From Ailanthus altissimus (Eukaryota; Streptophyta; Magnoliopsida; Sapindales; Simaroubaceae): a DNA stretch of 64,000 nt. Shown one piece after another: positions 1 to 64,000 of this stretch. The position numbers were made by a program, and so were the translations under genes. Position 1 is the stretch's first letter; the number at the start of each line of letters is the position of its first letter. The DNA is taken from positions 26,642,501 to 26,706,500 of the forward strand of contig OX327695.1 in the NCBI GenBank assembly GCA_946807835.1, given 5' to 3'. The notes under the pieces were generated by a model that was not told the DNA's origin, did not search any database, and saw nothing but the letters and a program-made list of their open reading frames with translations.

Positions 1-576
1 TTTGAACATCTTGGATTGTTTTTGATAATTTAGAGGAATTTATGAGCTATGGCATGCTCGAAAATGGATGTTGGTTTATTAAGGAACCGAACTACTATTC
101 TATTCTTAAACCTTGAATCGTCTTTCATTTGAACTCTGTAAATTAATTCTCATATGTACTTGAGTGTTTACTTTAGGGGTAAGTACTTGGTTGAGTGTGT
201 CAAGGATTTAAGTCTTGACAGATACAAAGGTAGTATAATAATCCTCTTCTTATATTGAGGGTTTTCTTCCCTTCGTGTGAGAGTTCTACACTATTTCTGT
301 AGAGTTTGTTTTCAAGTGTGTGTTAGTGTAGGGTTTGTTAATATACTTGTTTCTCTATTTACGTTTTTAACTTTTTATTTATTCTATATTTTATCTTAAA
401 ATATAAATATACCTAGATAAATTTAATGTATGGTATCTACATAAATATTTTTTTAAAATATATATATTTCAATTTAAATTTTTTTTTTTAGAATAGAATA
501 AAAGAAGAGTAATTTTGTCCATTCCGAATATAATCAATTCCTTTCTCCTTGTAATTCTTTGCACGAACCAAACAGC
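1..576. other. upstream flank, no gene recognised
   Basis: No coding region is supported here. The stretch is AT-rich, with a long T run near 480-490. It has a few pyrimidine-rich patches around 240-300 that could be the end of a repeat, but I cannot assign it. It forms the 5' flank of the first Tm-1-like gene. Confidence 0.4.
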
Positions 577-586
577 GAATATATAC
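577..586 (+). promoter_or_regulatory. possible TATA box of Tm-1-like gene 1
   Basis: The motif GAATATATACC lies about 120 bases upstream of the ATG at 702 and is followed by a CT-rich leader (CCCCCTTCACCTTTC), a common plant transcription-start context. This is inference from spacing and composition only. Confidence 0.35.
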
Positions 587-701
587 CCCCTTCACCTTTC
601 TATCTCCTTTCATTGTCATTTTTCTAATCAAATATCACCCAAGTGTAAGCCGGACAAGATCACCTCAAACAACTCCCAAACACCGAGTCAGAAGTTTGAA
701 G

Positions 702-3007
702 ATGGCCGGTTGTGAAGATAAAACTCCACGAGTGTTCTGTATTGCAACGGCAGATACAAAGCTGGTGGAGCTCCGGTTTCTCTCGGAATCCGTTCGTTCC
801 AATCTCATCACCTTCTCCAACACCTCTTCCAGAGTTCGTATATTTCAAACACATCCATGCTATGTAAAGCAGTTTTTGGATTTGACAATCATGACTTTGA
901 CTAGTTTATATATTGTTAGACTTAGCAAATTAACGAGAGCTATATGTTTTCACTACCGTAGTTTCCAAGAAATGAAGCAAAGTAGTAAAACGCTTGGAAG
1001 GAAAAAAACAAGTTATGATATAAAAATATATTGATAATGGAAGAAATTGAATGCCCATTTTTTATTATTGTAATTTCTTTTTTCTTGTTGTTGCTTTACA
1101 AAATATGGACTTATCTATTCCATTATAAGCATTTATGCAATTATACCACGCTGGGATATTACTGGATCAATTAACAGTTCTGCTTAGTTGGTTGGAGATT
1201 GAGTTTTGTGTTATACCTAGCAAGACTATTTTGTGTGTATTATTGGATTCGTAAAGCGGAGAGGGAGTAGACCTTTATAAACTATGTGCAAGTCGGAAGG
1301 CTGGTTCTTGAATTTTCAAATTCTAGTTGTTGGATTATATAATGGACTATTCTTTCAATTGTATTCATGAAAACAGCAGGTCCAAGTTGTGGTGGTTGAT
1401 GTTTCTGCCAGTCAAAAGGAGACTCAAACTTTGGAGGATTTGATCTTTGTGACTAGAAAGCAAATCCTATCTTGCTATTTTGGGTCAGAAGAGAGAGGCA
1501 CAGCTATGCTTCCAGATGACAGGGGAGAAGCTGTAGCTATGATGAGTAAAGCACTCGCAAATTTCCTTAAAATAGCACAGGAGAATAATGTGGTTGCCGG
1601 AGTCATTGGCCTTGGAGGCACTGGAGGCACATCACTAATGTCATCTGCTTTTAGAACTCTTCCAATTGGAATACCTAAGATCATTGTTTCAACTGTAGCC
1701 AGTGGTCAAACTCAACCTTATATTGGGACATCAGATTTGCTTTTGTTTCCGTCTATTGTTGATATATGTGGAGTTAACAATGTTAGCAGGATTGTGTTGT
1801 CAAATGCTGCTGCTGCTTTTGCTGGAATGGTAATTGGGAAGCTTGAAATGTCCAGGGATTCCTATACTATTAATGAAAAACCAGCTGTTGCAATGACCAT
1901 GTTTGGGGTTACAACTCCATGTGTAAATGCTGTCAAAGAAAGATTACAACAAGAAGGCTATGAGGTCCTGGTTTTTCATGCCACTGGGATTGGTGGCAGG
2001 GCTATGGAATCTCTGGTTAGAGAAGGATTCATACAGGTAAATCTCTGCACATTTACATGGATTCAGAATTCTCAAGATTTGCTAACTCAAAAGAGTTATA
2101 ACATTGAAAATGACTTATACCTAGGGTGTTTTGGATATAACAACAACGGAGGTTGCTGATTATGTAGTTGGAGGTATTATGGCATGTGATGATTCGCGCT
2201 TTGATATAATCATAGAGAAGAAGATTCCATTGGTCTTAAGTGTTGGAGCCTTAGATATGGTGACATTGGGAGCTAAAAACACCCTACCCCCTGAATTTCA
2301 ACGAAGAAAGACTCATGTACATAATCATCGGGTAATATATATCCCCAACTATAACTCTGGATTTTTGCCTTAGAATATTGGCATAGAACTGCAATCAGAT
2401 TTGCATATTATTTTAGTTAGAACATACCCAATTATCTGATATATTTATCTCCTAAAGAAGTAGAACGGCAATTAATCTGTTATTATACTCTGTATTATTA
2501 CTCTAATGAATTTACTTGATGATTTCTGATTTCAATACTTCTAAATAGCAGATTACAGCCATGCGAACCACCATAGATGAGAACAAGAAATTTGCTGGCT
2601 TTATAGCTGAAAAACTGAACAAGTCACAATCAAAGTTCAGAGTCTGCCTGCCAGAAAAGGGTGTCTCAGCTTTAGATGCCCCTGGTAAGGCCTTTTATGA
2701 TCCGGAGGCAACTTTTGCTCTTATAAATGAACTGCAGAGCCTAGTCAAGACAGATGGAGATCGACAGGTAGTGTTATATCAAATACTGTTGATATTAGTT
2801 GCAATTTAATAACGTTACATGATCACACAGATGAACTCTGCATAGTGTATATATTTACAGGTTAAGGTTTATCCTCATCATATTAATGAACCCGAGTTTG
2901 CAGAAGCACTGGTCGACTCATTTTTGGAGATCGGTTTGAAAAATCATGAAGAAACCGGTCAAGTCAATCAAGACCCTCATGGGGATTTTGATTTTAACAG
3001 GGATTAA
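702..3007 (+). CDS. Tm-1-like protein, N-terminal domain only (452 aa)
   Basis: Five exons: 702-833, 1380-2036, 2125-2331, 2552-2767 and 2861-3007. All introns are GT-AG and the joined frame is open for 452 codons. The product matches, exon for exon, the N-terminal half of the complete copy at 16518-20776: exons 2, 3 and 4 are 657, 207 and 216 nt in both. This is the UPF0261-type domain of tomato Tm-1, a protein that binds tobamovirus replication proteins and blocks viral RNA replication. Visible motifs are [38 protein letters not shown] and [13 protein letters not shown]. Exon 5 stops with TAA where the longer copy enters its linker, and no trace of the C-terminal TIM-barrel exons is seen before 3530. 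The start is the only ATG giving the conserved [12 protein letters not shown] opening. It could be a functional single-domain gene or a young pseudogene; intact splice sites and frame favour the former. Confidence 0.82.
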
Positions 3008-3529
3008 CAAACTGAACAAGCATAGAAAACCTGCATTTTCTTCCTCCAAAGCTACAGTTTCCAAATTCTGTCAAGAGAACTTCAGCATCCTTTCTCATCA
3101 AGTACTTGCATATTACACCTGAAAATAATGTTATAATGATGAATTAATGTTTACTGGTGGCGACGAGATATGACTTGCAGATGTTGCATGTTTGGGATTT
3201 TATATTACATTAATGAAATGTTCCACGTTGCAGTAATTCAGTTACCACAACTTATACAGAAGACATGATGACATTGACATATCATAAAAGCCAGTATGGA
3301 AATTTATTAATGAAGATATCGTTTTCGTTTACATCAATCAGGTTCGTTGTTTGGCATCACCAGACACCGATGAAAACTTTGCCTAGGATTGATGTGGAAA
3401 CCAATGCTTTGTGGTGTGTGTTTGCTAGATACGGTTGCACAATATGGTGCCGTTTTGGTAACACTTGTGTTAAAAGGAAATACATTTCTCTTTGTGAGGT
3501 TAGGTTAAGTTCTTTATGAGATTAGGTTA
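3008..3529. other. 3' flank of Tm-1-like gene 1
   Basis: Probable 3' UTR and flank. AATAAT-type poly(A) context occurs near 3124. I compared this stretch by eye with exons 6-9 of the complete paralogue and found no remnant of them. Confidence 0.4.
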
Positions 3530-16517: not shown

Positions 16518-19500
16518 ATGGCCGATTATCGATACAAAATTCCCAGCGTTTTCTGTATCGGAACTGCCGATACGAAGCTGGAGGAGCTGCAGTTTCTGGC
16601 CGAATCTGTCCGATCCAATCTCGGCAATTTCTCTAATAACTCCTCTTCCAAGGTGACATGTTTCTGGGCAGTTTTGCAAAACATTGTTTCGATGTAATTA
16701 TTACAGATTGGGTTAAATAAATCTAATGAAAACGAATATTAATTGACAAAAACAGGTGGATGTTGTGGTGGTTGATGTGTCTGTTAGCCAAAAGGAAACT
16801 CAGAGTGGGGGGGATTTCAAGTTTGTGAAGAGAAAGGATGTGCTCTCGTGCTTTTCTGGGTCCAGTGAGAAAATCCCTGTTGACCTTGACAATGATAGAG
16901 GCAAAGCTATTGGCATTATGAGTAAAGCCCTTGAGAATTTTCTTAAAAAAGCTGCGGAGGATCAAGTTCTGGCAGGAGTCATTGGCATTGGGGGCAGTGG
17001 AGGTACATCACTTTTATCATCTGCTTTTAAATCTCTGCCAATTGGGATACCAAAAGTCATTGTGTCTACAGTTTCTAGCGGTCAAACTGAACCTTATATT
17101 GGAACTTCAGACTTGATATTGATTCCATCTGTGGTGGATGTTTGTGGGATTAATAGTGTTAGTAGGGTTGTGTTTTCAAATGCCGGAGCTGCTTTTGCTG
17201 GAATGGTGGTTGGGAGGCTAGAGAGTTCTAGAGACTTGAGTACTAGTAAAGAAACATGTACTGTTGGTATAACCATGTTTGGAGTTACAACTCCATGTGT
17301 AAACGCTGTGAAAGAAAGATTGGTAAAAGAAGGTTATGAGACCCTGGTATTCCATGCCACTGGAGTCGGGGGCAGGGCTATGGAGGCTCTGGTTAAAGAG
17401 GGATTCATACAGGTATTTCACACTACTACGTCTTTAGACATGATGAACATACATGATTTATCAATAACTCATGCATTAATTTTTTATGTTTACATTTAAT
17501 TTGCTTGCTTAATAGTTGGACTTGCCATTTAAACCTTCCAATTTATTCATGATTCTATATTGTTTCCTCTTTCCTAAAATTTGTACTAAGGTTTTATATG
17601 AATCAAGTTGGTTTACCAGTTAATTTCATTTCATAGTCCTGAATTGTTCATTTGATTTCCCAAAGGGTGTATTGGACATCACAACCACAGAAGTTGCAGA
17701 TTATGTAGTTGGAGGTGTTATGGCTTGTGACAGTTCTCGATTTGATGCAACCATAGAGAAGAAAATTCCTTTAGTCCTGAGTGTGGGTGCCTTGGATATG
17801 GTGAACTTTGGAGCTAAAGATACCATACCTTCAAATTTTCAACATCGGAAGATTCATGTTCATAATGAACAGGTAATGTATCTAAATTCAATTCTTTTTT
17901 CTTTTTTTTTTTCCTGATGTAGACAGAGCAGAGTAATTTGATTTGTGTTTCTTCAGTTGAGAATCTTAAGATAGATTGGATAGTCTGCCTTATGTACTTT
18001 GGACATGTAATGTTTTCATTTGCAGGTCTCACTCATGCGGACAACAGCGGATGAGAACAAGAAGTTTGCCGCATTCATTGCAGATAAATTGAACAAATCA
18101 ACATCAAAGATCCGTCTTTGTTTGCCACAAAATGGTGTCTCAGCATTGGATGCACCAGGGAAGCCATTTTATGATCCTAAGGCAACTGGTACACTTATAA
18201 GTGAGCTACAGTCACTTGTTCAGAAAAATGACGACTGGCAGGTATACTTATTGCTTATTAAATTTTGCATTGCAATCCTACTTTCTTTGTTTAATTACAT
18301 ATTATGTTTTAGATTTATTTCATGTGCTGTCCATTTCTAATGGCCCTTGTTAATTGAAATTTGTGTATATCAACAGGTAAAGGTGTATCCATATAATATC
18401 AATGACCCTGAGTTTGCGGATGCTTTGGTTGACACATTTTTAGAGATCAGTATGAAGAATGTTAAGAATTCCAGTTCTCCCCAAAGTGTCTCTCGTGAAC
18501 CTAGTGAAGACCATTGTGAGGACACTGTTTCTGATGTAAATACATCAAGCCATGGGACCATATGTTACAGCCCAAGCAACTTCCCTGATGCACGACTAGG
18601 TTGTAGTATGATCGCTTCTCCATCATAACACTACATCACATTAACTTATTGAATTTATTGTTATATGTGAACACAGAACTCATCTTAGTGAAGCCTTTAG
18701 AAATTATTAGTCGCAATCTTACACTTCATAGCAAGCAAAACTTTAGCAACATATTTATAACATTTGAGATATGCATTTGTGTTCTTTTACTCCTCTAGTT
18801 TTGCATCTTTATCCATGTTGTTTGATTGGATACACATTTACATTTGTTCATAGTTAACTAACAAAGAATAAAATGGAATAAATTCTTTTGAATTGTGGAG
18901 TTAGTTGGTGGATGTGGTAGTATGTCAATGTGGACAAAAACCTAACGAGAAAATAAACTCTTTATTTAACAGAAACTTTACAAAAGACCCAGGCAATATT
19001 GTTAAAACTGAGAGATCAGATAAACAAAGGATTGCCCATAATCGGGGCTGGTGCTGGAACTGGAATATCTGCCAAATTTGAGGAAGCTGGTGGCGTTGAT
19101 CTGATAGTATTGTACAACTCAGGACGCTTTCGCATGGCAGGAAGGGGTTCCTTAGCAGGCTTGTTGCCTTTTGCAGATGCAAATGCAGTTGTACTTGAAA
19201 TGGCCAATGAAGTGTTGCCTGTAAGTTCCTATTGCTAAAAAAACTATGCACCTATTTGTCTTCACATACATATTTGCAGGGGGAGACATATGCACTTGTA
19301 CACTGAATAGTGAGTACAATAAAATTATTTATATATTTGAGTTCCATCTTTTTGCCAATTGTCATCTCTATCAGATTTTCCCATTGAGGTGGTAATGCAA
19401 TGTTTTCCAGATTTCAAATTTTGTTAAGTTTGCTGTGGTAGTGTTTTAAGATTAAGATGTTAATTCATGACTCTTGAGTACATCCAAGCAGTCCAGGATA

Positions 19501-54439: not shown

Positions 54440-56730
54440 GCTCAAAGGTGGTCTTGCCAAGGTGAATTTTGGCGAAGACGCTCCGATGCTTAAGTTAGAA
54501 AAGAGAGATTTTCTCTCTTAAAAAATATGACAAATTAGGAATAAAATGTTCCCTGGCGACGGGGAGGGGTTTTTTTTATCATCCTCCGCCATGTCTCCCT
54601 CTTTTTGCTTTTATAGTAATGGCCTTTCAGGGACTTTTTTAGGCTTTCCTCTGCAGTATTTCTGTCTTGCGCTTGATATTTTTTGCTGTACTTCTGACAC
54701 ATGCTAGGTATCTTCATACTGCCCCCTCTGACATACGACGAATATCTTTTCACAGATTTTTTATCCCCGTTCTTACCCCATGTCAAATGTCACTTCTGAT
54801 GTGCTATGCATATTCCTCGGGTTTATCTTCACCGGCATTTTTAGTTCAAGTGAGGCTTATTTTGGTCCGCTCGAGTCAAATTTTGAACGGCTCTCATTTA
54901 CTGGTTTGATATTGACGCGAAACTCTCGTAATGAAGTTGCGGTATGTAGTCAGTACTTGCTCGGCCGTAGTCACATTAGAGTCAGCATATGCCGAACAGG
55001 TTTCATCATTAGTTGACCAGATTCCTCCTATCTGAACCGATTTTACTGCTCTATTGGGTTTAGGCCCATTGGCCATTGCTCTTGGGCCAGCCTTGGTTGA
55101 ATTCTAGGCTGAGGGAAACAGGGTTCCACTAGTTTCGAGGCTTGATTTGTCAAAACTGAAAATCTTATTCTGGTCTGGTCGGTCTGTATTAATCACGGGG
55201 TTCCCACTTTATATGTTGTCCTCTTTTCATCCGAGCTGACCAACTTTGTTCGCTCTGAGCAGCTTCGTGACCAAGTCCAAATTTTGACAAAGTTAAAGTG
55301 GGTGGAATTGTTGTGGTGTCATTATGGCGACTTGAAAAGTCGTTGCCACGTGGTGACGGTTTTTCCCAAGATTTTTGAATTTAATGGTAGGTCTCTTCAA
55401 ACGTCATGTCCTTCTTTTTTCCCGAGTGATGTTATCTGATTGGAGTCCCTCAGACCGTCCGATTTGTTTAAATCCAACGGTTTGAGCTGCAACCATATGA
55501 AGAGACGCGCCTTTATTGCATTTGAGGACTCGAGGCGTTGCGTCTCTGGCATCAAGCGCCAGAGACGCAACCCATTGATCTCGTTCATTTTTTTTATATT
55601 TTAAACGGCCTAGATCACTTTACTATTGCTTTTAAATAGTCACTTTCTTCTCCGTTTTGTACCTCTTATTACGCATTTTTGATTTCTTGCTACCTTTCTG
55701 CTGTGTTATTGTTGCTTCTTTATTGCTTCTTTGTTGAATGTGCGTTTTTAATCTGGTGACTTCATTTTTCGTTGTTCTTCATTCCGGCTTCTCTGAAGTT
55801 TTCTACTACGTCTTTATATTCTCTTTTTTGGATTCTTTTCTTTTGTTTTATTCTAGGCACTTGTTTCAGGCTCTGCTTTTAACCTATTTGCCTGTATTTT
55901 TCTCCATCATAGCTTTCTTCATTTGCTTGCATTTTTTGGTCCTGACGACTATCGTATATTTTACCATTTCCAAGCTTGGTTGATTTGTTGCTGTCTTTAC
56001 CCAATAATTTTTAGCCTCATTTAAGAAGTGCCTTTTATTAGTTGATGGCCTCTAGAGTCGATCTAGATTTCTCAGTTGTGGATATGGCGATTGAGGAGGG
56101 GGAACAGCCCTCAGAACTTCTATTAGTTATGAAGGGAAGGGGGGTTGGAGCGAGTGAGAGAGCATCCACCAGTGCGGGTGGATTTCCCTCATCTGGATGC
56201 TCCCTCGTCTGAGGTAGCCCTACACGAGGCCGAAACGGTCTTAAGCTACAAAGAGGATGAAGCAACGATCCTGAGGATGGAGTGGCGGGGGAGGGCATGG
56301 AGGTAGTAGAATACTAAATGAATACCCGATACTGCGCTTCTTGCCTTATTGAGGATGACCTAACCCTTATCAGGCATTCCTACAACATTCTTGAGATAGT
56401 CACCCTCAGGTTGCCCTCCGAGGAGGATTATCTGAGCAGCCCTCTTAATGGCGAGGTGGCTATTCATGTTAAGTTCCTGAGGCTAGGACTCAGGCTTCTC
56501 ATACAGCGATATTTTGCTAAGATGTTAGCCTGCCTTGGGATAGTCCCTTCCCAAGTAGGTTCGAACTCATGGAGAGTGCTTGCGGACCTCTATTACCTCT
56601 TATTTCATGGCCTTCAGAATCTAGTCCCGAGTCGGCAGACCTCTATAAAGGACTGGAAGGGGGAATGGTTCTTTACCTGTAGAGAGTGGGGTCAAAGTGT
56701 CCCCAAGAGGGATGGGGGAGAGTGGGTCAT
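54440..56730 (+). mobile_element. 5' part of a gypsy-like element, cut by a later insertion
   Basis: Composition rises sharply in GC at about 54440. The stretch to about 55650 looks like an LTR (GGCGAAGACGCTCCGATGC, several TATA-like sites, TTTTAAATAGTCAC near 55632), followed by a leader and a gag-like region from 56044. It stops at 56730 where the next element's LTR begins. No pol is seen, presumably because it lies beyond the inserted element. Boundaries of the LTR are not certain. Confidence 0.5.
56044..56730 (+). pseudogene. gag-like ORF with plant 'transposase_28' type domain, frameshifted
   Basis: A start at 56044 (MASRVDLDFSVVDMAIEEGE) runs to a stop at 56213. The conserved part continues in another frame from 56318: LRLPSEEDYLSSPLNG, then LRLGLRLLIQRYFAKMLACL, then PSQVGSNSWRVLADLYYL. 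This matches the N-terminal gag-like region of plant gypsy-type elements often annotated as putative gypsy-type transposase. The ORF is interrupted at GGEWVI by the LTR at 56731. Confidence 0.6.
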
Positions 56731-58287
56731 TGTTTACGCTCAAAATATAACGCGGCTATCGCAGTATAGATTGAGGTGTCGATCCCACGAGGAAGCTCTT
56801 GGCAAAATAGGTTAGTGAAGTAAAATATTAAAGCAGTAGCAAAGAGTTAATTGATTTAAACGGATGAGATAGAATTGTCTATGAATTGAGGAAAATGTCT
56901 TATGACGATTTAAGCAAGGCTTTGAGAATCACAATTATGCTTTATAAATCTACTCTATACTTTGATTCGATATTTATAACTCAACTGAAAGTTTCACATC
57001 CCAAACAATCAATCGGAAGATATGTAATATATAGCACATTTGATAACACATGTATTTGATTTAGTTAAACTCTTTGCAAGCATTAACACACATCATGTTA
57101 TTTATACAAGTTATCTAAGATCGACAATATATCATTTTGACAATATTGCAGTAAAAGATTAACTTGAATATCAAACATTTATTGCCCTTACATGTTATCC
57201 AAGATCGACAATATATCAAATTGACAATACTGCAGTAAAAGATTAACATATAAAACAATATAACCAGTAACAATTATAAATCAACATGAATCACATAAGA
57301 AAAGCATGACTGAACATATATGAGACATGAGAATTATAACCTCTGGATTATAGAAAATAAAATAGATAAGAGTTTAATCAAAACCAAACTTACAACATTT
57401 ATAGCTCTTGACACCGAATCAAAGCATGGAAGTAGATTTACTACACATAAAAGTTCATCTCTTAGCCTTGCTAGGAACTCTAGCCTAAATTATAATACAT
57501 GTTAATGAGAATAAAAGAAGAGAGAAATTATCTATTAAAAACGTCCTAAGGGTCTCCTTATATAGGCAATGAATGGACATATGTCATGGATGACATCAAT
57601 CTTCAATAGTTTTAAGCCAATAACTCGTGTATCCACTTGCAGCACATTTTTGATAATGTAAATGATTAATTCCGCTTCTGCAGCCGACATGAAAGTTGTA
57701 GAATTTTGACTCTTCTTTCCATAGGCACTGATTTCATGCAAATTGGATGAGTATCCAATGAGATATGAGCAAAATTCCAAAGATGCATCAGAATTCGGCC
57801 AACAACCATTTTACCCACTTGCAATGCGATTTGGTCCATGATAACGGCTGATTTGGACTTTACCATAAACATACGAGTTGTTGATAGTAAAGTCAGCAAT
57901 TCACAGCTTTAAGAATTATACCAATTGAGTACGTATTTTGTGAGATACAGTCCAAATACGTGAATTGGGTCAAGCTGGGTAAGAGTTGTAGTCCGATTCT
58001 GTTGTATCTCAATTTTTGGCCCATAACATGTTGGATTTGGCTTTTCCACTATTCTTCAAATTTGTGTAAGATTGAGTCATGTTGCACCAGGTTCAAGAAT
58101 TTCTTCATTTTAATTTCTACATTGAGATTTATGTCCAATTTACCTAAACCTGTCCAAATAACATTCATTAATCACAATTTAAGGAGAACACTTTATTTCA
58201 AGCTAAAAATACAGAAAACACTAAAATTAATGACATTAAATGGTGATTGAATCTCTTAACAACATGCATTTTCATGTGTTCATCACA
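56731..58287 (-). repeat. 3' LTR of the LOG-bearing gypsy element (about 1,557 bp)
   Basis: On the minus strand it starts TGTGATGAACACATG right after the polypurine tract and ends GAGCGTAAACA. The five bases beyond the end are GTCAT (56726-56730). If the boundary is right, the unseen 5' end should be followed by the same five. It contains a copy of CTCGTGGGATCGACACC, a string common near the end of plant gypsy LTRs. Two direct repeats (about 57111-57163 and 57193-57245, period 82) share GATCGACAATATATCA and GCAGTAAAAGATTAAC. Confidence 0.7.
57557..57564 (-). promoter_or_regulatory. LTR TATA box
   Basis: On the minus strand, TTGCCTATATAAGGAGACC lies about half way along the LTR, a usual position for the U3/R boundary promoter. 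Confidence 0.55.
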
Positions 58288-59652
58288 GCCCCCAACCAGT
58301 TTATTGCTAGTCTCTAGCAATTCAAGCGTAAATAGAATATGCAAAACTACCTAAGCATTTCAATCAAAACGTTAGTTCGAGATCACTGTTGCTATCATGG
58401 TTTTTTCAATTACAACTTCCGTAATTTGTGTGTGTGTGAACTAAGCCATAACCATCTAACCACAAACCACAATAGATATAGCCTTGAGAATTTCTCCAAG
58501 TAAAAGCCTCAACTCCATATCCTCACAGGTGTATGACTGTTTAAAAGGTTAGGACTTCTCTTATGGAGTTGGAAAACAGTTAAGCACTCAAGAAAAAGTC
58601 AATTTTAAGGACAGACATATAAACTAACATTGATCCGAAGATAGGAAAATTATTTGTTTAAAAATCAATTATTCATATCATACGCCAACTTTAGAACTTT
58701 AATTGGCTTGTGAGAATAATACAATTATAACTTGGTGAGAAAACTGTTTTACAAGGTATTTGTCTTCTAAAATTGAATGAAGACTTTATTAAACTGAATT
58801 ACTTTTTTTTTTTTTCTTGTTTTTGGTACTTTTGTGCTTTTTTTTTTTTTTTTTGTATTTTTGAAGAATACAAGGAAGCATTATAAAGGTTTCTCACCAA
58901 ATTATATTATGCACAAATGTAACCAACTTATCCTTTAATTCAAATAATATCTTTCTAAACAAAAATTAACCAATTCAAAGGATCAATGAAGGTTCATAAG
59001 CTGTTTTCTCAACCTTTCCACTTACTCACAAAAGATATGCGAGATTAGAAAAATATATACTTAAACATGAGAATTCTCTTGGCTATATAAATTGAATCAT
59101 CCATCTTACCACAAGGCTTAGCATTGTGCTCAAAAATATTTTGGAAGTCATTCTTTAGTAACCTAGATAGAAACAGTGACTCAACCTAAACAATTCTGAA
59201 ATCATACTTAGGCAGAAAAACAAATTCCTTTATACAAGAATTACCAAGACTACAAGCAGTAAACGACAATGCATGAAATATAAAACAAAATAACAAAAAG
59301 TTAGTTAAAATGCATTTCAAAAGTTAGTACTAAAACTCCTTACTCTGCCATTCTAATTTGACCTAGAATGCGTCTCAAGAGTTTAAGAATGAACTCTTTA
59401 CTCTGCCATTTTAATCAAATATCGGACCACAATTTTTTTTTGTTTTTTTGTTTTTGCAAAATACAACGTATGTCTACTATCCTCCCCCCAAACCAGATGA
59501 AACATTGTCCTCAATGTTTAAATAGAAAGAGATAAAGTATAGGAGACATTACCTGAAACGCCAGTTATTTGAAAGAAACAAACATGAGAGACACTTAAGC
59601 AAATATAAACTAAAATGATGGTACTGATAAATAAATAAATAAAAAGAAAAAT
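58288..59652 (-). other. non-coding region between LOG and the 3' LTR
   Basis: No ORF is present. Near 59475-59515 the minus strand reads GAGGACAATGTTTCATCTGG then TTTGGGGGGAGG, a motif frequent downstream of pol in Athila/Tat-type elements. Long T tracts lie at 58803-58855. The polypurine tract GGTTGGGGGC adjoins the LTR at 58288. Confidence 0.6.
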
Positions 59653-60300
59653 TTACAAACGGAGTGTCAGATCCAATTTTCGCTTGTTAAGGCCCACTGA
59701 CCAATCGATCCGAGTTATTGCTGGGTCAGGTTCGTAGGTAACTGCCTGTAATTTGTTAATCAATTCATCCGCCTCAGTAGCAGAAACCAGGATCTGTCGC
59801 GCCGAATGTGAAATAAAATTCTGTTCCACAGCTTGATCAAGAAAACAAAGTAAGCAATCAAAATAGTTATTAACATTCAACAAACCTATGGGTTTTCGGT
59901 GGATATTCAGTTGGGCCCAAGAGACAATTTGAAAAATTTCTTCCAAAGTACCAAAACCACCTGGTAAAGCAATAAAAGCGTCTGCATTGCAAAGCATTCT
60001 GGCTATACGTTCATGCATGGATGAGACTTGTAATTCTTCCCCTATTATTTTCCCGGTCAGGTTTCCCACGGCCAAAGCTGTAGGAATAATACCTAAAACT
60101 TGACTTCCTCCTAAATGTGCAGCTGTTGACACACACCCCATTAGCCCAAGGCTACCTCCTCCATAAATCAAATGAATTTTTCTTGCAGCTAATGTTTTTC
60201 CTAGATTGTTTGCTGCTTCTACGAACACTTTACTCTCCCCAGGACTAGATCCACAAAATACACATATATTTCGAAATTGTCGAACTTGGGTTTCCTCCAT
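59653..60300 (-). CDS. LOG-like: LOG-type cytokinin riboside 5'-monophosphate phosphoribohydrolase inside a retrotransposon (215 aa)
   Basis: Single uninterrupted ORF on the minus strand. The family converts cytokinin ribotides to active free bases in the cytosol. Signature motifs are present: ICVFCGSSPG (12-21), YGGGSLGLMG (46-55), the catalytic Arg98 in MHER and PGGFGTLEE (113-121) with Glu121. Length fits plant LOG proteins (about 210-230 aa). Plant LOG genes normally have several introns; this copy has none, which suggests capture through a spliced RNA. Divergent points include Ile99, where plant LOGs I recall have Lys, and a drifted C-terminus. The frame is open upstream to 60369, but the first ATG is at 60300, followed by the family-typical opening. 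It lies between pol with the virus-like ORF and the 3' LTR, all on the same strand. A non-catalytic lysine-decarboxylase-like relative is possible, but the catalytic residues argue for activity. Confidence 0.9.
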   Translation of the reverse strand: MEETQVRQFRNICVFCGSSPGESKVFVEAANNLGKTLAARKIHLIYGGGSLGLMGCVSTAAHLGGSQVLGIIPTALAVGNLTGKIIGEELQVSSMHERIARMLCNADAFIALPGGFGTLEEIFQIVSWAQLNIHRKPIGLLNVNNYFDCLLCFLDQAVEQNFISHSARQILVSATEADELINKLQAVTYEPDPAITRIDWSVGLNKRKLDLTLRL

Positions 60301-60360: not shown

Positions 60361-60615
60361 GAGTGCCAAATGATAACAATGATTATGGTAACCCGACAGT
60401 TTGTCAAAAGAGAGTTAAAAATAAAACACAAATATTTAAACATAATGACCCGCATGCATTATTGAATAAAAAGATTTGAATTTAAGACATCTACATGAGT
60501 AGCCCTACTATTCATAAAATAAAGTTTGAAATTAAAACACATGTATTTACAAGTAGTTGTGATTGTGGCTCACATCTTCCTTTGGTTTTACGTCCAGTAA
60601 CGGCTTAAACGCCCT

Positions 60616-61164
60616 CTATGGGTCGGGGATAGGCTTCCCATCCAATTTTCTTATAAATTGGCAAACAGGGTCTTTTAGAGTCAGATTCCCGAGACTATAC
60701 CGTTGATGTTCATTTTTGAATTTGTTCCATAAATCGAGAAGTTCACGTTGCACGAGCCCACAGGGATGCGTCTCAAGAGTCAATAGGATATCATCCAAAG
60801 ACTCCTTCTTCAGTCCATCCTTAATGAACTGAATTTTGTCTTCTCGATTTCTAGATACGAATCCTAAAGAACGACAACTCCGATTACAATTCCATCGAGC
60901 ACATTTATGACAGACTTGTAACCTTTTTGCTCGTCGCCTTTTGGCATAAGAGCTTCTTCCAAGACCAGGCATATGAGAAACAAAATCATTTTCAAACTCA
61001 CCAGACAACCGAACCTTGGCTTCAATTAACCAACGAAGGTCCACAGGGATATTACCCAACATCAATAGCCTTAGTCTTTCACACCGTGCTTTGTAAATCT
61101 TAAGTAGAGCATTTTGAGGAAATGAAGGAAAACGTTTTTTAAGGTTGGCAAGAATGCGATCCAT
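60616..61164 (-). CDS. accessory ORF with carlavirus-NABP-like basic zinc-finger region (182 aa)
   Basis: Intact ORF on the minus strand between pol and LOG. Residues 67-81 form a Gly-Arg-Ser start and a strongly basic run (KRRRAKR at 75-81). A four-cysteine cluster follows at once: Cys85, Cys88, Cys93 and Cys97, with His86. After it come SRNREDKIQFIKDG and an acidic tail. The order GRS, YAKRRRAK, then C-x2-C, then Cys pairs, then a short FI(K/D)xG segment, closely resembles the C-terminal nucleic-acid-binding protein of carlaviruses, where it binds nucleic acid and is linked to suppression of RNA silencing. The cysteine spacing here is tighter (C-x2-C-x4-C-x3-C). The first 65 and last 65 residues match nothing I recognise. 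It could instead be a chance basic zinc-binding ORF. The resemblance is judged from memory of the family, not from a search. Confidence 0.65.
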   Translation of the reverse strand: MDRILANLKKRFPSFPQNALLKIYKARCERLRLLMLGNIPVDLRWLIEAKVRLSGEFENDFVSHMPGLGRSSYAKRRRAKRLQVCHKCARWNCNRSCRSLGFVSRNREDKIQFIKDGLKKESLDDILLTLETHPCGLVQRELLDLWNKFKNEHQRYSLGNLTLKDPVCQFIRKLDGKPIPDP

Positions 61165-61216: not shown

Positions 61217-61238
61217 AACTGAGAAACCGACTTTAATA
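61217..61238 (-). promoter_or_regulatory. TATA-like box and CTCAGTT motif before the virus-like ORF
   Basis: On the minus strand CTATTAAAGTCGGTTTCTCA then GTT lies about 55-75 bases upstream of the ATG at 61164. The arrangement TATTAAAG, seven bases, CTCAGTT parallels TATAAATA, six bases, CTCAGTT before the LOG ORF. Confidence 0.4.
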
Positions 61239-61412
61239 GTCACGGAGTACTGTATCCGTCACTTGACCGGGAAATAAAATCACACTGAAGAAAAAATAAA
61301 AAGAAGAAAATAAAGTAAAATAAAATGTGCAGGAAAATAAAAGTAAAAATAGAAAGTCAAAAGATAAAGTATAGACAAAATATAAAATATGGTACAGATA
61401 GATTGAACCTGA

Positions 61413-64000
61413 TCAATCACGATAGACAGGATCCACAAGAGGGATCTCGCCTAGGTACATAGAGTCGTTTACCTTTTCCACGTAGCTTTTTAGCCGCTGT
61501 CCATTCACTTTGAAAGTCCGTCCATCAGTGGGGTCTTCTATTTCAACAGCACCATTAGGAAAAACATGTCTTACCATAAATGGACCAGTCCATCGAGATC
61601 TCAACTTTCCAGGGTGTAAATGCAATCGAGAATCATAAAGATAGACCCGTTGATTTGGCTCAAAGTGTTTCCTTGAGATCTGTTTATCATGAGCTACTTT
61701 CATTTTAGCTTTGTAAATTTTGGAGTTGTCATATGCGTCATTTCGTAGCTCTTCTATTTCTGACAATTGTAACTTTCTCTGGAGACCTGCAGCATTCAAA
61801 TCAAAGTTAAGGGCTTTGACAGCCCAACAAGCTTTATGTTCTAGCTCAACAGGTAAATGGCAAGCTTTCCCATAAACAAGCCGGTATGGGGACATTCCTA
61901 AGATGGTTTTGTATGCAGTACGATATGCCCATAATGCATCAGAAAGGCGTAGAGACCAATCTTTGCGATTCGGGTTAACCGTCTTTTCCAAAATCTGTTT
62001 AACCTCTCTATTTGCTAGCTCGGCTTGTCCATTTGTCTGTGGATGGTATGCAGTGGAAACTTTGTGAAGAACACTATACCTGCGCATCAAAGCTTCAAAA
62101 GAACGATTACAAAAATGTGTTCCTTGGTCACTAATGATGACACGTGGCGTACCGTACCTAGATAACACATTTTCTTTTAAGAATTTTACCACAGTTGTAT
62201 TATCATTAGTACGACAAGCTACAGCCTCCACCCATTTTGATACATAGTCAACAGCTAAAAGGATGTAAAGATAGCCAAAAGATGAAGGAAATGGACCCAT
62301 AAAATCAATACCCCAACAGTCAAATATCTCGATAACAAGAATAGGGTTAAGAGGCATCATATTTCTTCGAGATAAAGCACCTAACTTTTGACATCTTTCA
62401 CAGGAACGACAAAAATTATTAGTGTCTTTGAACAAAGTGGGCCAATAAAGACCACACTGTAAAATTTTCACAGCTGTCTTCTTCATAGAAAAATGGCCAC
62501 CGCAAGCAGCACTATGGCAAAAATTTAAGACACTAGAAACTTCACTTTCAGGAATGCAACGTCTCATGATTTGGTCAGGACAGTATTTGAAAAGATATGG
62601 ATCATCCCAATAAAAGTTACGTACCTCAACCAAGAACTTACGCTTATCTTGTGCACTCCAGTCAGATGGAAGTTCACCACAAACCAAATAATTTACGATA
62701 TGTGCATACCAAGGTATTTGGCTTATAGCAAAAAGATGTTCATCTGGAAAATCGTCTCGAATGGGTGGCAAATCAGTAGAGTCAGTGAACTCAAGGCAGG
62801 ATAGATGATCAACAACAACATTTTCAACGCCTTTCTTATCTTTGATGGTTATATCAAATTCCTGCAAAAGAAGAATCCACCTAATTAAACGGGCTTTAGC
62901 ATCCTTCTTAGAAAGAAGGTACTTAAGGGCTGCATGGTCAGTAAAAATAACAATAGGTGAACCAATCAAATAAGAACGAAATTTATCTAAGGCAAAAACA
63001 ACAGCTAGTAGTTCTTTTTCAGTAGTAGTGTAATTCATTTGAGCATCATTCAAAGTCCTACTAGCATAATAAACAACAAAGGGTTTTCCCTCCCTCCGTT
63101 GCCCAAAAACTGCTCCTACAGCATAATTACTTGCATCACACATAATTTCAAATGGGAGGTTCCAATCCGGTGATTGCATGATAGGAGCGGTGGTGAGTTT
63201 GGCAATGAGTGTTCGGAATGCCTCCTCACACTCTTGTGTCCATGTAAATTCTGCATCTTTTAGCAAAAGGTTACACAATGGTCTAGATATGGCAGAAAAA
63301 TTTTGTATAAACCTTCTGTAAAAGCCAGCGTGTCCAAGAAAGGATCGGACATCTTTTACCGTTTTAGGTGTAGGTAATTTAAAGATTAATTCAATTTTTG
63401 CCTTGTCAACCTCTATCCCTCTTTCAGATACAATGTGCCCTAAAACGATTCCTGAAGATACCATGAAATGACATTTCTCCCAATTTAGCACAAGTCCTTT
63501 TTCTTCACACCTACTCAAAACAGATTTCAAGTTAAGTAGGCATAAATCAAAAGAATTACCAAAAACAGTCAAATCATCCATAAAGACTTCCATGCATTTT
63601 TCAACCATATCAGAGAAAATACTCAACATGCAACGCTGGAAAGTAGCTGGTGCATTACATAATCCAAATGGCATTCTACGAAAAGCATAAGTACCAAAAG
63701 GGCATGTAAAAGTAGTTTTTTCTTGATCTTCTATAGCTATCTCAATCTGGTAATACCCTGAATACCCATCAAGAAAGCAATAAAAAGGATGTCCAGCTAC
63801 ACGTTCTAAAATTTGGTCGATAAAAGGCAATGGAAAATAGTCTTTTCTAGTGGCTGTGTTTAACTTTCTATAATCAATACACATTCTCCAACCACTTACT
63901 ACCCTAGTTGGAACAGGTATCCCATTCTCATTTTCAACAACAGTAACCCCAGATTTCTTAGGAACTACTTGAGTTGGACTTACCCATTGACTATCAGAAA
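61413..64000 (-). CDS. Ty3/gypsy pol polyprotein, C-terminal part
   Basis: The frame is open from the right edge (starting [14 protein letters not shown]) to the stop at 61413, at least 860 codons, so the N-terminus, protease and gag lie outside. Numbering from Met at 63884: RT with [10 protein letters not shown] (38-47) and FMDD (101-104). RNase H follows with [25 protein letters not shown] and [10 protein letters not shown]. The integrase has an HHCC finger ([16 protein letters not shown]) and the D,D-35-E residues in [15 protein letters not shown] and [10 protein letters not shown]. The tail ends [11 protein letters not shown], typical of the Athila/Calypso group. There is no internal stop or frameshift, which suggests recent activity. 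It supplies replication and integration functions for the element carrying the LOG and virus-like ORFs. Confidence 0.93.

Follow-up and report, generated by a model that had tools for sequence, protein, structure and literature searches.

Steinbauerova et al., in 2011, reportedly described two Athila-like elements that resemble LOGL4. A YgdH/LOG domain has been recorded in the gypsy consensus elements of Citrus sinensis and Citrus clementina and, without the filter applied in that study, in a Populus trichocarpa gypsy element as well (PMC9289625, section 12); the same section credits Steinbauerova et al. (2011) for LOG-like gypsy domains. Since such domains are already in print (PMC9289625, section 12), LOG capture by a gypsy element is not new. 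What the Citrus and Populus elements have in common with the locus described here is a LOG-family domain carried by a gypsy element; in contrast to our locus, the account given of them in that section comes without an NABP gene, a pocket change, or a single clade. Plant gypsy elements often carry extra ORFs, most of them without known domains (PMC9289625, in the part that treats them). The Phalaenopsis gypsy element with an m6A demethylase ORF resembles our locus in that a captured nucleotide-related enzyme is carried as an extra ORF, while it differs in that the enzyme is another one, the element stands close to Ogre/Tat, and its activity has been assayed (PMC9289625, in the passage on this element).

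We found no report of an NABP gene in retroelements among the open-licence papers listed; NABP is unmentioned in PMC9289625, and a 2026 review of gene capture (PMC13317346) contains no mention of cytokinin, LONELY, carlavirus, or Athila. It is the NABP-plus-LOG region that is new, together with the changed LOG pocket, rather than the capture itself. We read the locus, with moderate confidence, as a likely-Athila gypsy element that carries behind pol an NABP gene, which would act as a damper of silencing, and a LOG gene of old capture with a changed pocket.

The gypsy element and its LOG-family ORF

The window, by which we mean the whole 64,000-nucleotide stretch of DNA analyzed, contains the following parts of the element:

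61413..63998, minus strand: gypsy pol, 3' part (PF00078, PF17917, PF17921, PF00665), open past the window edge
59653..60300, minus strand: LOG-family ORF of 215 codons (ORF list, Pfam, alignment, Foldseek)
56731..58285, minus strand: putative 3' LTR, with TG at 58285 and CA at 56731 (by eye)

The visible pol, with its domain-bearing ORF at 61413-63884, encodes reverse transcriptase, RNase H, H2C2, and integrase domains and has an in-frame stop only at its end; gag and the 5' LTR fall outside the window. Because the pol frame continues without a stop up to the window edge, the "intact gypsy pol" of the first-pass annotation holds for the visible part and does not extend to what lies beyond that edge. 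The purine-rich tract GGTTGGGGGCTG directly precedes the putative 3' LTR, whose limits are unproven since the window holds no 5' copy for comparison. As this LTR starts about 1.4 kb past the LOG stop, the ORF can be said only loosely to lie "just inside" it. A chromodomain marks chromoviruses. An archaeal-type RNase H marks Tat elements (PMC6317226, in the part consulted for this trait). Neither domain was detected in the visible pol at E <= 1, and the domain content makes it likely that the element belongs to the Athila lineage.

Within the putative LTR, two 70-nt direct repeats (57105-57174 and 57189-57258) are 86% alike and lie 84 nt apart. A plus-strand ORF (56318-56815) with a sub-threshold match to Transposase_28 (E 0.0098) overruns the putative LTR end at 56731, and the element may, judging from this ORF, have inserted into another gypsy element. 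Elsewhere in the window, two plus-strand ORFs with a UPF0261 domain (1389-2159 and 16756-17499), about 15 kb apart, are probably exons of duplicated host genes.

ORF, Pfam, and structure analyses confirm the intact 215-codon LOG frame with its motifs YGGGSLGLMG, R98, and PGGFGTLEE that had been recognized in the first pass, as well as its position on the same (minus) strand as pol. PF03641 matches the ORF over profile positions 1-131 of 131 (E 1.9e-38), and the nearest solved sequence is that of AtLOG3 (2a33; E 2.8e-65). The AlphaFold model of the protein has a pLDDT of 88.5, and Foldseek aligns it to 2a33 with a target TM of 0.94-0.96. The Pfam, AtLOG3, and Foldseek matches rule out a chance ORF, and a plus-strand reading of 59653-60300 is ruled out by 13 stops. 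Introns are usual in plant LOG genes; the proposal that an intronless LOG coding sequence lies within a gypsy element is supported.

We use the pocket numbering of the Corynebacterium LOG (CgLOG), whose catalytic residues R99 and E122 (PMC4979012, section 6) correspond to R98 and E121 of the window LOG. With the plant enzymes AtLOG3 and AtLOG8 the window LOG shares the fold, the PGGxGTxxE motif, and the catalytic Arg and Glu, but its identity to ten canonical rows in an alignment of 46 of its 120 best relatives, these ten of the 120 canonical rows, and the window copy itself amounts to 46-50%, the K100 and E125 sites are changed (to I and Q, respectively), and it falls into a separate clade. 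Measured against type I LOGs, the ORF thus has the Lysine_decarbox/LOG domain, the LOG fold, the PGGxGTxxE motif, and the catalytic pair (R99 and E122 of CgLOG), and it lacks the pocket Lys100 and Glu125 present in AtLOG3, OsLOG, and CpLOG. Since this Lys/Glu pair is replaced, we class the ORF as LOG-like by its fold and catalytic residues and not as a proven cytokinin LOG.

The NABP-type gene and a LOG-less sister element

Between pol and LOG lies a second intact ORF that the first-pass annotation had overlooked. It is best described together with the blocks that the window has in common with L001 (3330 bp), the sole sister element represented by DNA in our comparison:

61238..61274, minus strand: conserved non-coding block ahead of the NABP ORF, TTTCCCGGTCAAGTG...CTCCGTGACT, common to L001
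60616..61164, minus strand: NABP-type zinc-finger protein of 182 amino acids (Viral_NABP/Carla_C4)
60874..60912, minus strand: C-x2-C-x4-C-x3-C motif of this protein (C85, C88, C93, C97; alignments)
60546..60674, minus strand: 129-nt block spanning the NABP stop, 123/129 identical to L001 2289-2417
59483..59558, minus strand: resumed similarity to L001, TTTCAGGTAAT...CATTGAGGACAATG...TTTGGGGGG (sequence comparison)

The ORF matches Viral_NABP with 33.2 bits (6.6e-8; curated cut-off 23 bits) and Carla_C4 with 28.3 bits (1.7e-6; curated cut-off 20.9 bits). Of 602 candidates in a protein search, 490 were relatives at E <= 1e-3, and the named origins among the 120 rows listed are Populus (two), Xanthoceras, Acer, Rhamnella, and Orobanche. 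In an alignment of 59 of the best 120 matches plus the window copy (60 rows), C88 and C93 are invariant, C85 and C97 are present in at least 90% of the rows, and 55 of the 60 members match each of the two Pfam families with E <= 0.01. Like the carlavirus-type NABPs (PF05515, PF01623), the retro-NABP has a cysteine motif behind a basic stretch and passes the Pfam cut-offs; it differs from them in being 182 amino acids long and retrotransposon-borne, with only residues 39-121 matching the viral profile. These 28-33 bit Pfam matches are what points to kinship of the retro-NABP with the viral proteins, and the protein is predicted to bind nucleic acid.

The structure model of the NABP protein is weak (pLDDT 62.9), and no solved structure matching it was found. 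A search of viral folds with this model gave no match at E 0.001; among its 19 first rows, 15 are plant-virus silencing suppressors or nucleic-acid/RNA-binding proteins, all with low TM-scores. Scans of viral contigs found no relative in them. Three pairs of NABP and LOG relatives have an equal longest contig (P0001/P0121, 8723; P0007/P0215, 4511; P0113/P0132, 2128), a coincidence that is suggestive only of both genes residing on one element elsewhere.

L001 runs from the integrase end of pol through NABP into the block that trails LOG in the window. By this gene order, NABP is common to both elements and LOG occupies an extra interval from about 60545 to 59558; at the matching place in L001, LOG is absent. 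NABP therefore looks like a core accessory gene and LOG like an add-on, in a comparison of two sequences that is compatible with a LOG gained in one line as well as with a LOG lost in the other. Between the two elements NABP is under purifying selection (omega 0.193; dN 0.169, dS 0.876), while omega is not computable for the pol part because its synonymous sites are saturated (pS 0.773, pN 0.216).

The same comparison bears on whether LOG belongs to the element at all. A single-exon host gene or retrogene lying beside the element by chance might be expected to have its own promoter, and a TATA-like TATAAATA is indeed seen by eye at 60360-60353 on the minus strand, 60 nt ahead of the LOG ATG. 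We nevertheless regard this explanation as very improbable: LOG sits between two element blocks that adjoin closely in L001, it lies on the pol strand ahead of the putative LTR, and a YgdH/LOG domain resides inside the gypsy consensus sequences of poplar and of two species of Citrus (PMC9289625, section 12). The L001 comparison in particular disfavors a host LOG gene that is merely nearby. As for other promoter signals, a sigma-70-type scan upstream of LOG returned one site against a shuffle mean of 1.9, a consensus that is meaningless in a plant.

The block at the NABP stop is conserved at synonymous sites too: the last 26 codons of NABP show 3.0 synonymous differences over 17.7 sites, compared to 58.4 over 101.1 in the rest of the gene. 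Such a pattern points to a signal at the nucleic-acid level, possibly in RNA. The conserved blocks fold weakly (z -1.58, -1.94, 0.24, and 0.43) and an Rfam scan of them found no family at cut-off, on which grounds we propose no structured RNA. By eye, we noted pyrimidine-rich stretches ending in CAG, reminiscent of splice acceptors, on the minus strand at 61238-61290, immediately in front of the conserved block that precedes NABP, and at 59548-59563, after LOG; both are found in L001 too. L001 itself corresponds to positions 1-3330 of DAIEQH010000041.1, a contig with plant-retrotransposon content filed under a Candidatus Nomurabacteria genome. A plant-like retrotransposon contig in a bacterial genome makes contamination of this public record likely.

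The LOG pocket and the descent of the LOG relatives

A protein search with LOG gave 7923 matches among 7999 scored candidates, and we analyzed the best 120 of these with all rows kept. As the canonical comparison set we used the best 120 of 7997 AtLOG3 relatives, again with all rows kept, in which M96, H97, R99, K100, T119, E121, E122, E125, and W129 are present in 120/120. Among the best 120 of the 7923 LOG relatives, most of these residues are retained (T119 in 120, E121 in 116, W129 in 118), including the catalytic pair, R99 in 114 and E122 in 118, whose disruption had been named beforehand as an argument against a functional reading. H97 is retained in 61 of these 120 rows. The K100 site is occupied by I, M, or L in 113 of them, by K in 6, and by T in 1; the E125 site by Q in 80, H in 31, E in 5, and other residues in 4. 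A hydrophobic residue at the K100 site occurs together with Q or H at the E125 site in 109 of these rows; the other pairs are K+E (5), K+Q (1), hydrophobic+other (4), and T+Q/H (1). Two LOG pocket residues have changed together.

These residues matter for activity in characterized enzymes. In CgLOG, Lys100 is among the residues of the AMP site, where alanine replacements, with the exception of S19, nearly ended activity (PMC4979012, section 6), and a Lys-to-Ala exchange at the K100-equivalent site of a bacterial type-II LOG abolished AMP hydrolysis (PMC5379747, in the part on this mutant). By analogy with these alanine mutants, the retro-LOGs may act on a new or a narrower substrate, or may serve in binding. 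A changed substrate set is likely in view of the replaced pocket residues.

The first-pass annotation had instead taken LOG for an ordinary cytokinin-activating enzyme, with raised cytokinin possibly favoring dividing cells and meristems. Fold and catalytic residues do match those of plant LOGs, and the window copy has kept the predicted prenyl-site residues M96, H97, and W129, so that cytokinin nucleotides may still be among its substrates. A hydrophobic K100 site might still suit prenylated substrates, since the published tests of activity loss used AMP. Against this stand the change of K100 and E125, each present in 120/120 of the best canonical rows, in the window and in most of the best 120 relatives, and the retention of H97 in just 61/120 of the latter. 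We consider a plain cytokinin-activating enzyme unlikely, and as originally worded the claim is unsupported; the data are better matched by one old capture and a changed pocket.

The window LOG is not an isolated case: among the matches listed, close relatives come from Malvaceae, Sapindaceae, Meliaceae, Populus, and Paulownia, with the genera Reevesia, Diplodiscus, Pterospermum, Xanthoceras, Melia, Populus, Paulownia, and Primulina represented. The cluster behind one Pterospermum row (P0240) comprises 327 member sequences, and two rows are near-identical to the window LOG (P0121, 99% over 100% of the query; P0160, 95% over 67%). Such large clusters, the many rows per species, and the near-identity of P0121 and P0160 indicate indirectly that LOG is multi-copy. 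Most of the relatives, known here for the most part as proteins alone, are presumably element-borne.

When LOG was placed in a phylogeny, as had been proposed in the first pass, the sampled relatives formed one clade apart from the canonical LOGs. In a careful tree, from which the three pocket columns were excluded, the 31 retro-like rows (30 of the best 120 relatives plus the window) separated from the 14 canonical rows (13 of 120 plus AtLOG8) with a support of 100/100 and a stem of 0.95. A quick tree of 44 retro-like rows (43 of 120 plus the window) and 22 canonical rows (21 of 120 plus AtLOG8) gave the same one-clade split. We selected tree and alignment rows manually, with a view to a broad spread and to named origins, and the canonical side of the trees consists of LOG1/LOG3/LOG4-type rows and AtLOG8 only. 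LOG likely derives from a single old capture; its age is suggested by the fact that the clade includes rows from rosids as well as from asterids, unless the element has moved between species. Three rows with the K/E pair, two of them from Xanthoceras, branch first in the careful tree, and the K/E pair thus looks ancestral; this tree requires one change at E125 and two at K100.

A captured LOG might also be a decaying passenger from which the element draws no advantage. L001 manages without LOG, and 12 of the best 120 relatives have lost at least one of five catalytic or motif residues (R99, E122, G116, G118, T119), as decaying copies would. All five residues are present in the other 108, however, and their conservation argues for upkeep of LOG. 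The length of 215-217 amino acids is intact in 96 of the best 120 relatives, 61 of the 215 positions hold one residue in at least 95% of these rows compared to 38 positions without a majority residue, and the pocket pair changes together. The passenger explanation is, in our view, rather improbable.

Taken as a whole, the first-pass annotation was right about the observation and about capture and went too far with the plain enzyme, and it missed the NABP gene at 60616-61164, which L001 has kept.

Possible roles of the two extra genes

The NABP and LOG ORFs are both intact and lie on the pol strand. Both proteins are presumably made, LOG would be an active enzyme, and, as judged from their sequences, the two extra genes likely help the element to act on the host cell. 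In our preferred reading of a gypsy element with an NABP gene and a LOG of changed pocket, the NABP protein would bind nucleic acid, shield the RNA of the element, and likely dampen the RNA silencing that the host directs against it. Suppression of silencing is a property carried over from viral relatives of NABP, which include known silencing suppressors (PMC7588395, PMC12172455, in the parts on these proteins): p12 of chrysanthemum virus B is a silencing suppressor and transcriptional activator (PMC7588395) and is said to cause hyperplasia (PMC12172455). The LOG protein, with its catalytic pair kept and its pocket changed, would likely cleave different N6-modified adenosine monophosphates than the host LOGs, or a narrower set of them, and would shift the nucleotide or cytokinin pool in the cell that expresses the element.

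More tentatively, and with some doubt on our part, the region could be the virus-like module of a widespread gypsy lineage, which would combine a silencing suppressor with a LOG re-tooled by the linked Lys/Glu change. Such a re-tooled LOG would act as a nucleotide hydrolase of a new kind and reset a hormone or nucleotide signal in the cell in which the element replicates.

The locus offers two extra ORFs with recognizable and testable functions that would be aimed at the host, one at RNA silencing and one at the nucleotide/hormone pool. The natural replacement of the LOG pocket pair would provide a ready set of enzymes from which to learn about LOG substrate choice. An RNA-virus-type suppressor in a retrotransposon would give a handle on escape from silencing and on the exchange of genes between viruses and transposons; if this assignment is true, the NABP gene would mean that there has been gene traffic between flexiviruses and retrotransposons.
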